Origin: Anaerolineae bacterium | GTDB taxonomy: Bacteria > Chloroflexota > Anaerolineae > Caldilineales > Caldilineaceae | Length of the DNA stretch: 64,000 nucleotides | Direction of reading: 5' to 3' | Assembly: GCA_030432295.1 (NCBI GenBank) | Contig: JAUIHI010000007.1 | Span: 62,001-126,000, forward strand | Shown: one piece after another, positions 36,392 through 38,255 of the stretch | Layout of the letters: each line of letters starts with the position of its first letter | Position numbering within the stretch: the first letter of the stretch is position 1 | Translations under genes and position numbers: made by a program | Notes under the pieces: generated by a model | The model's database searches: none | What the model was told of the DNA's origin: nothing | What the model saw: the letters and a program-made list of their open reading frames with translations, nothing else

Positions 36392-36436
36392 AAAAGGGGG
36401 AGGGAAGAATCGATATCGATTCTTCCCTCCCTTTTT
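36392..36436 (+). terminator. Rho-independent terminator of the THI5-like importer operon
   Basis: A palindrome centred at 36414/36415 with 22-base arms (AGGGAAGAATCGAT core; two G-U pairs in the outer stem) is followed directly by TTTTT at 36432-36436. It lies 44 bp after the stop of the binding-protein gene. Confidence 0.9.
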
Positions 36437-36475: not shown

Positions 36476-36484
36476 AGACACGCC
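36476..36484. repeat. Left target-site duplication, AGACACGCC
   Basis: AGACACGCC at 36476-36484 directly abuts the left end of the MITE-like element and is repeated exactly at 36698-36706 on the other side. Confidence 0.85.
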
Positions 36485-36697
36485 GGGTGCAATTCAAGTT
36501 CGGGGCAGGTTGTGGTTGCGACGATCGCTCCGGGCTAAAGACCCGGAGCTATTGAGCGGCGCCCCCTAAACGGGGCTGCAAGAGAGCCGAGCAGAGGACG
36601 GATAAGCCGGATTTATCCGGCGTGGCTCGATAGCCCGGTGTCTTTAGCACCGGGCGGCACAGACGATTCTACTTCGCCCCAAATCTGAATTGCACCC
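36485..36697. mobile_element. MITE-like non-autonomous element, 213 bp, with 12-bp perfect terminal inverted repeats
   Basis: The left end GGGTGCAATTCA (36485-36496) is the exact complement of TGAATTGCACCC (36686-36697). Extending to 22 bases the two ends still match in 19 positions and both finish in a GGGGC. The element is flanked by a 9-bp perfect direct repeat, the mark of transposition; 9-bp duplications are made by several transposase families (for example IS1- and IS5-like). No transposase is encoded. The inside holds four hairpins: GCTCCGGG-ctaaaga-CCCGGAGC (36527-36549), GCCCC-ctaaac-GGGGC (36561-36576), GCCGGAT-tt-ATCCGGC (36606-36621), and GCCCGGTG-tctttag-CACCGGGC (36633-36655). 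The first and last have loops that are complements of each other. It sits directly before the promoter of the 36816 gene. Confidence 0.85.
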
Positions 36698-36706
36698 AGA
36701 CACGCC
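36698..36706. repeat. Right target-site duplication, AGACACGCC
   Basis: Exact copy of the 9 bases at 36476-36484, abutting the right end of the element at 36697. Confidence 0.85.
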
Positions 36707-36713
36707 AATCCAG

Positions 36714-36742
36714 TAGACGCCGCTCCGCTTCTCGCGTATAAT
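36714..36742 (+). promoter_or_regulatory. Promoter with consensus -10, next to the MITE-like element
   Basis: TAGACG (36714-36719) and TATAAT (36737-36742) are 17 bases apart. The -10 is perfect, the -35 has four of six consensus bases. It would serve the gene starting at 36816 and lies 8 bases outside the right target duplication. Confidence 0.55.
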
Positions 36743-36815: not shown

Positions 36816-38255
36816 ATGGCAAAGCAGGAAGAGATCGTTCGCTGGCAGTTCTTGCTGGACGAAGATCGGTGGGAGAGTCGAACAGTCGAAGAGTATCCCC
36901 TCGACCAGTCGAACGCCCCCGATGCAAACCCGGCGAGTCGGGCGCGGGCAATCCGCTTTTGGGCGTTGACTGTCACGGCCGTCTTCCTGGCCGGATCGGT
37001 TTCCCTCTTTTGGCTCTGGCGAGAGGCCCAGGCCGGGCTGGAAGAGGTGCGGGACCAACTCACCGCAGCCATCGAACTGGAGATATGGGCGGACGAACGG
37101 GGAGATCGGGCGATGGCCGCGGGTCTGCTGGACGCAAATGCCAGCCCGACCTGGCGCAACCAGAATATCAGCCGCTTCTTTCCCCTGCCAGATGGGGACG
37201 AACGTCAGATTTCAGCTCACATCGCCGACTTTGAGCTTCAGGACGACCGCGCTCTGGTCACAGTCGTTGTGACAGACAGCCGCCTGGCGGTCCCTTATCA
37301 GGAGACACGGGTCTACCGGAAGACAAAAACCGGGTGGGTCCGCACAGCACCCAGCGCAGACTTTTGGGGCGTATGGGAAAGCCAGGAAAGCACCTATTTC
37401 GTCTTTCGCTATCGCACCCGGGACCGGGACGCTGTGACAGCCGCGGCCCCGGAGATCGACCGGCTCTACGAGCGGGTAGTCCGAAGTCTTGGGTTGCCCA
37501 TCGACTCGGGGCGCGAAAAGATTGCGGTCGAGGTACGTATCAGCGGCACAGTTGCACAGAGCAGCACCCGCAACAGCAACGGACGCGTCCTGGCGGTCGC
37601 TTCCCCCCAACTGCTGCCTCGCCCTCTGGGACTTTCCGCCGAAGCGGCGCTCGCCCAGTCTGTACTCTATCAGATCATCAATCTGACTATCTGGGAACGG
37701 ATGGACAATGTCCCCGGCGACTGGCAATCGATCCGCAGCGGGCTTCGCCTCTGGCTGATTTGGGAGGCAGACGGTGTTCTGGCCCAATCCCGCGGCGATG
37801 TTGTGCGTTGGCTCTACGAGGAAAGTATGGCTCCCTGGGAGAAAGGCTATTCAGGCCGCCCCCAGAACTACGACGCCATCTGCCAGGGCTTCTGGCTGTG
37901 GCAGCTACATCCTTACGAAATCGGTGTTCCTTTGACCTGTGACCAGACCGAAGGGCAACTTTTCACGCCGGTCAGGATGCCTGTCCAACTGCGACAATTG
38001 CCCATGCCCGAAATGGATCCCGAATTCCGCGGCGCGTGGACACGGCTGAATACAGGCCGGGCCATTGCCCTGGCCACCCTTTTCGATTTCGTGGACAATA
38101 CCTACGGGCCTGCCTCTGTGCCCGCACTATTGGCCCAGACACCGGACTATCTGCGCTGGCACGGCCTTGTCTCCAGCACACTGGACGTCTCTGCCGCAGA
38201 ATTTGAGGCAGAGTGGCAGGCTCACATGCGTCTGCTGGCCGGGCTTGAACAATAA
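36816..38255 (+). CDS. Membrane-anchored protein with NTF2-like and degenerate peptidase_MA-like domains
   Basis: 479 residues from the ATG at 36816 (GGAG six bases before); a GTG at 36804 is possible. One hydrophobic segment (about residues 43-65) anchors it. Next comes an NTF2-like region (about 70-180), then a region like the gluzincin-type peptidase_MA domain (about 190-475), with the C-terminal pattern LATLFDFVDNTYG ... AAEFEAEWQAHM. The zinc motif HExxH expected before this is not present; at its place is AEAALAQSVLYQII. So it is probably inactive as a protease. Function unknown. A MITE-like element lies upstream. Confidence 0.55.
   Translation: MAKQEEIVRWQFLLDEDRWESRTVEEYPLDQSNAPDANPASRARAIRFWALTVTAVFLAGSVSLFWLWREAQAGLEEVRDQLTAAIELEIWADERGDRAMAAGLLDANASPTWRNQNISRFFPLPDGDERQISAHIADFELQDDRALVTVVVTDSRLAVPYQETRVYRKTKTGWVRTAPSADFWGVWESQESTYFVFRYRTRDRDAVTAAAPEIDRLYERVVRSLGLPIDSGREKIAVEVRISGTVAQSSTRNSNGRVLAVASPQLLPRPLGLSAEAALAQSVLYQIINLTIWERMDNVPGDWQSIRSGLRLWLIWEADGVLAQSRGDVVRWLYEESMAPWEKGYSGRPQNYDAICQGFWLWQLHPYEIGVPLTCDQTEGQLFTPVRMPVQLRQLPMPEMDPEFRGAWTRLNTGRAIALATLFDFVDNTYGPASVPALLAQTPDYLRWHGLVSSTLDVSAAEFEAEWQAHMRLLAGLEQ

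Follow-up and report, generated by a model that had tools for sequence, protein, structure and literature searches.

A gene-less MITE family with ISKra4-type ends lies in fixed orientation upstream of promoters in an Anaerolineae genome

Transposable elements that carry no gene depend on enzymes encoded elsewhere. We show here that a MITE in an Anaerolineae genome belongs to a family whose copies are flanked by differing target-site duplications, share their ends with a resident insertion sequence and lie at a fixed distance from promoters, always in one orientation where a promoter is recognized. Very probably the element was moved in trans by a transposase of the ISKra4 family and inserted about 16 bp ahead of a -35 box, its right end facing the promoter. 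A DDE transposase of this family (prokaryotic Mutator-like, p-MULT 4) would recognize the terminal repeats of the MITE and place it, with an 8- or 9-bp duplication, upstream of a housekeeping (sigma-A type) promoter, such that the right end of the MITE faces the promoter at approximately 16 bp from the -35 box. The MITE could thereby multiply in the genome without wrecking genes.

Structure of the element and its family

The element lies in a stretch of 64,000 nucleotides that was analysed as a whole (the window). Its parts are as follows.

36476..36484, no strand: target-site duplication, left copy AGACACGCC
36485..36697, + strand: MITE, 213 bp, non-coding, subfamily A (copy searches and flank reading)
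36485..36506, + strand: left terminal inverted repeat GGGTGCAATTCAAGTTCGGGGC, promoter-distal, 22/25 identical to the resident ISKra4 left end
36526..36577, + strand: inner inverted-repeat arm with hairpin CTCCGGGCTAAAGACCCGGAGC, 71% complementary to its partner arm
36550..36632, + strand: 83-nt core, inverted in subfamily B copies
36605..36656, - strand: inner inverted-repeat arm, second copy
36676..36697, - strand: right terminal inverted repeat, promoter-proximal, GGGTGCAATTCAGATTTGGGGC on the - strand
36698..36706, no strand: target-site duplication, right copy AGACACGCC

The dimensions given for 36476-36706 in a preliminary description of this DNA were all reproduced: an element of 213 bp, flanking 9-bp copies of AGACACGCC that are 100% identical at a spacing of 222, and terminal repeats that are perfect over the first 12 bp and match at 19 of 22 positions when extended. 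A scan of the whole window located the exact end pattern at only these two places. The ORF check revealed no plausible gene inside the element, since the open reading frames crossing 36485-36697 are shadow frames, and the promoter scan found no promoter within it. As a single strand the MITE folds far better than its shuffles (z -6.3), and hairpin CTCCGGGCTAAAGACCCGGAGC occurs 19 times genome-wide at up to three mismatches.

We searched the genome from which the window derives (6.7 Mb in 61 contigs). BLAST with the window MITE returned 74 pieces that represent about 40 whole or partial copies, the best seven of which, partial ones aside, have E values of 1e-117 to 1e-80. With up to one mismatch allowed, the genome contains 76 occurrences of the 12-bp end GGGTGCAATTCA versus three of the reversed control pattern. 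Given these numbers, the window MITE is not a product of chance. Flanks could be read for 22 bounded copies; an exact 9-bp duplication was present in eight and an exact 8-bp duplication in five, nearly all of these 13 duplications being different from one another, and three further copies have a duplication matching at 8 of 9 positions. The preliminary description had proposed a MITE, had called for a genome search for copies with differing flanks and had counted as evidence against its reading a single copy in all related genomes, with the 9-bp repeat kept at the orthologous empty locus. That proposal stands: the copies are many, and they combine the same ends with differing 8-9 bp flanks.

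Two subfamilies can be distinguished, A, which includes the window copy, and B. Identity is 73-82% between them and mostly 85-100% inside each. Their 83-nt cores align better in inverted than in direct orientation (66/77 versus 53/79 identical positions), and the inverted alignment scores 38.5, compared with a maximum of 14 in shuffled controls. The outer arms keep the same direction in A and B and the core alone is inverted, which suggests that the segment between the two inner inverted arms has flipped. The inversion is seen when window positions 36550-36632 are compared with the copies L009-L013 and L017. Additional hairpins of 14-19 nt are present in some copies, and a 320-bp copy (L016:1330-1649) contains an insert that includes a palindrome of its own, GTAGGGGCGCTGCTTGCTGCGCCCCTAC.

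Position relative to promoters

Around the window copy, the following features lie outside the element.

36393..36436, no strand: near-perfect 44-bp palindrome, candidate terminator, with an NMT1/THI5-like ABC-transporter gene upstream
36714..36719, + strand: -35 box TAGACG, 16 bp from the MITE right end, kept at orthologous loci
36737..36742, + strand: -10 box TATAAT, offset 40 from the MITE end
36816..38255, + strand: downstream gene served by this promoter, 479 aa, without a match in Pfam or NCBIfam

The arrangement recurs across the family. When the -10 box was scored (threshold above 3) at 27 right junctions in this genome, 21 had one at offset 38-42, against a background of 9% taken as the mean over other positions (P 1.5e-17). 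The -35 boxes peak at 15-17 from the right junctions, as expected. Left junctions of the copies in this genome show no -10 peak and stay at background level. Alignment of the promoters brings out TTGAC and a TG-extended TATAAT, whereas the sequences separating the two are unrelated. Six of the 27 junctions have no clear promoter in the interval; among them is L002, whose end is mutated and which shows TATACT at offset 36. The preliminary description was correct in placing the MITE just upstream of a promoter, yet this is an insertion preference of the family and not an accident of one locus. The resident insertion sequence, described below, behaves alike: all three of its right ends have a -35 box (TGGACA, TTGACT, TTGACA) at the distance found for the MITE and a -10 box at 39-40, and none of its three left ends has a -10 box in that interval. 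The right junctions of MITE and insertion sequence alike fit the -35 spacing of 13-17 bp from the junction that characterizes promoter-targeting p-MULT elements.

One might argue that insertion is random and that selection retains those copies that happen to sit just above promoters, where they do least harm or have a useful effect on expression. Only surviving copies can be observed, any that landed in genes would have disappeared, and the core promoters do stay intact. However, purging of gene disruptions would allow any intergenic site in either orientation, while most copies have their -10 box at offset 39-41, and on the right side only, and published p-MULT elements have the same spacing (PMC3942029). 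We therefore regard retention by selection as unlikely and infer that the promoter-relative position comes from target choice.

A held-out set from other Chloroflexota gave a similar picture. Of 23 MITE-like elements in these genomes, 19 are flanked on one or both sides by a -10 box at 38-42, and when all flanks are pooled, 17 high-scoring boxes fall in the 38-42 bin versus 0-3 in other bins. Since the promoter can lie at either end of these elements, the strict orientation is a trait of the family in the present genome.

At the window locus the promoter scan reads TAGACG-N17-TATAAT. Orthologous genes in congeners keep this core promoter and lack the window MITE; the DNA upstream of it is too divergent there to define a clean empty site. 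Beside the window MITE the core promoter is intact, as are the 16 bp that precede its -35 box. With a conserved core promoter, and with these 16 bp preserved by the duplication, the insertion would not be expected to break the promoter, and any effect on expression would have to come from sequence farther upstream or from blocked read-through. For the gene at 36816, whose expression the MITE may have changed according to the preliminary description, lost upstream activation or blocked read-through are conceivable effects. The preliminary description had placed the MITE between a terminator and a promoter. The promoter does lie just downstream, but the terminator side is less clear, as the palindrome at 36393-36436 was scored as terminator-like on the - strand only. 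This palindrome, which is unrelated to the MITE, has a T-rich 3' side; on the + strand its stem is followed by T residues (CCCTTTTTGG), and in that direction it could terminate the upstream ABC-transporter gene. In one congener (G003), a hairpin stretch resembling the right half of the MITE lies just above the same promoter (L128, approximately 1290-1395); it has no terminal repeat and is read as an old or independent insertion.

Strong conserved hairpins and a fixed place in front of promoters might also be taken as signs of a regulatory module adopted by the host, such as an upstream insulator or terminator or an RNA hairpin, whose position is functional. Several observations argue against this. 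In subfamily B, only 2 of 77 pairs show changes on both sides, and one of these two lies within the terminal repeat, which lends little support to an RNA function of the hairpins. Furthermore, core orientation and extra hairpins vary between copies, and the checked relatives do not have this insertion at this promoter. Rfam returned nothing at gathering level for the region of the window MITE and only chance microRNA matches on the upstream palindrome. A host-adopted module is thus a very unlikely explanation compared with a mobile element inserted upstream of promoters.

The ISKra4-type parent

The end GGGTGTAATTCA is found exactly 127 bases inside six contig ends. These fall in two classes, each identical over the 127 bases: the starts of contigs C16, C33 and C61 share one sequence, and the starts of C2 and C4 together with the end of C7 share another. 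Such a pattern is a typical trace of a multi-copy element that collapsed in assembly, the two classes being its right and left ends, respectively. C33 and C4 have the 9-bp duplication CACAGAACG in common at the break, indicating at least one complete insertion in the organism; a matching duplication was found in just one of three possible pairs of ends. The right end encodes GMRWSRTGAENLLPIRAAVLSGRFDQIWAASKNLPPT, the 37-aa C-terminus of a transposase, which matches the NCBIfam ISKra4 model with E 7.6e-6, a fragment match below the whole-protein cut-off. A 361-aa transposase from a member of the same bacterial family shares 89% identity with it, and this relative passes the ISKra4 model (207 bits, cut-off 205). 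Parentage, left unnamed in the preliminary description, can now be ascribed to the ISKra4 family from the matching ends and the transposase C-terminus, with the limit that the contigs of this genome hold no full-length parent, only the 127-base ends and the last 37 transposase residues. Longer ISKra4 genes in C2 and C18 were considered as the parent and rejected, because their ends differ from those of the MITE.

Between the two ends of the resident insertion sequence, 24 of 25 bases are identical. Compared with them, the left end of the MITE matches at 21-23 of 25 bases and its right end at only 17-18 of 25; the two MITE ends diverge beyond base 12. When left ends alone are compared, MITE copies and insertion sequence match at 22-23 of 25 bases. 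MITE and insertion sequence have nothing in common beyond these ends of about 25 bp. ISKra4 elements that are complete in other genomes of this bacterial family measure 1439-1669 bp and have the same kind of ends, of GGGT(G/C/A) type, and 8- or 9-bp duplications. The MITE family itself fits the published p-MULT 4 features, which are 8- or 9-bp direct repeats and inverted ends of 18-39 bp with a terminal cytosine (PMC3942029).

Transposase families besides ISKra4 also make 8-9 bp duplications. Consequently, another such enzyme, for example of the IS256 or IS4 family, might move the MITE, with the likeness to ISKra4 ends being coincidental, and a resident insertion sequence that is assembled as ends only leaves some room for this idea. 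On the other side, agreement at 22-23 of 25 end bases links the MITE to an element of the same genome that encodes an ISKra4 C-terminus, this element inserts at the same promoter distance, and in the congener G006 a MITE and an ISKra4 end share GGGTGCATTTCAGTTTTAGG. Mobilization by another family is therefore very unlikely. It is probable instead that the resident ISKra4 transposase moves the MITE in trans and carries the target preference.

Two observations on related elements may be added. In G006 (L106, L119, L097), the end type shared by the related MITE and the ISKra4 end differs from that of the window family, as if MITE ends might track the local transposase. In the genome of the window, 9 bp separate the left end of the resident insertion sequence from the end GGGTGCGTCCC of a second ISKra4-type element, whose transposase gene is almost complete (G000:C2:1-1600, L078).

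Known systems and other genomes

Bacterial MITEs are generally short and gene-less, with terminal repeats, target duplications and hairpins. The same features are known from Correia, RUP, MITEAba12 and QMITE1, but several MITEs of this type carry their own promoters (PMC10969869), while the window MITE adjoins an existing one. Generation of 8-9 bp repeats is common to p-MULT elements, and insertion at 15-17 bp ahead of the -35 box has been described for TnGBS/ISLre2 and for some ISKra4 elements (PMC3942029). With the ISKra4 group (p-MULT 4) the family shares end type, duplication length, transposase family and the position about 16 bp above the -35 box (PMC3942029); it differs in that the MITE has no transposase gene and only its right end faces promoters. 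The published ISKra4 elements with this promoter habit have near-symmetric ends and promoters on both sides. TnGBS/ISLre2 (p-MULT 3) elements resemble our family in oriented insertion 15-17 bp above sigma-A promoters, right end proximal, but belong to another transposase family, as the nearest whole protein fails the ISLre2 model (77 bits, cut-off 200) and passes that of ISKra4. Thus, ISKra4 elements as such and the promoter habit of autonomous ISKra4, ISLre2 and TnGBS elements have already been published. We found no report of a MITE with promoter targeting or of a strictly oriented ISKra4-type element in the open-access literature; a MITE family with the promoter habit is apparently new, and its strict orientation departs from the reported ISKra4 elements.

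Unlike ends have been proposed to set orientation, near-symmetric-ended ISKra4 elements inserting both ways (PMC3942029). The unlike ends and strict orientation of the MITE are as predicted by this idea. The resident insertion sequence has near-symmetric ends and yet places its right end at the promoter in three of three cases, which are too few to decide. These small, gene-less, oriented promoter insertions make up a clean natural dataset from a phylum with little transposon study. They bear on which part of the ends determines how Mutator-like elements are oriented on insertion and on whether the transposase reads promoter DNA or bound polymerase. In practice, the right end of the MITE points at a promoter and can serve as a marker for promoter mapping in uncultured genomes.

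MITE-like elements with these ends are also present in other Chloroflexota and in Bacteroidota. In two Bacteroidota genomes, such ends, flanked by 8-bp repeats, enclose a match to the ISKra4 model that is broken by stop codons. We tentatively consider that the target might be recognized via RNA polymerase or sigma at the promoter and not by the DNA letters, though this is somewhat less probable than the opposite. Under such recognition the same spacing of 38-40 bp would be expected in Bacteroidota despite their other motif, TAnnTTTG. Across 33 flanks of Bacteroidota MITE-like elements, four of eight exact motifs within 140 bp fall at 38-40 bp, an exploratory result from 17 elements. A stricter pattern applied to a larger Bacteroidota set matched one of 395 genomes. 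The motif at this distance from one end is seen in the right flanks L138, L147 and L157 and in the left flank L130.
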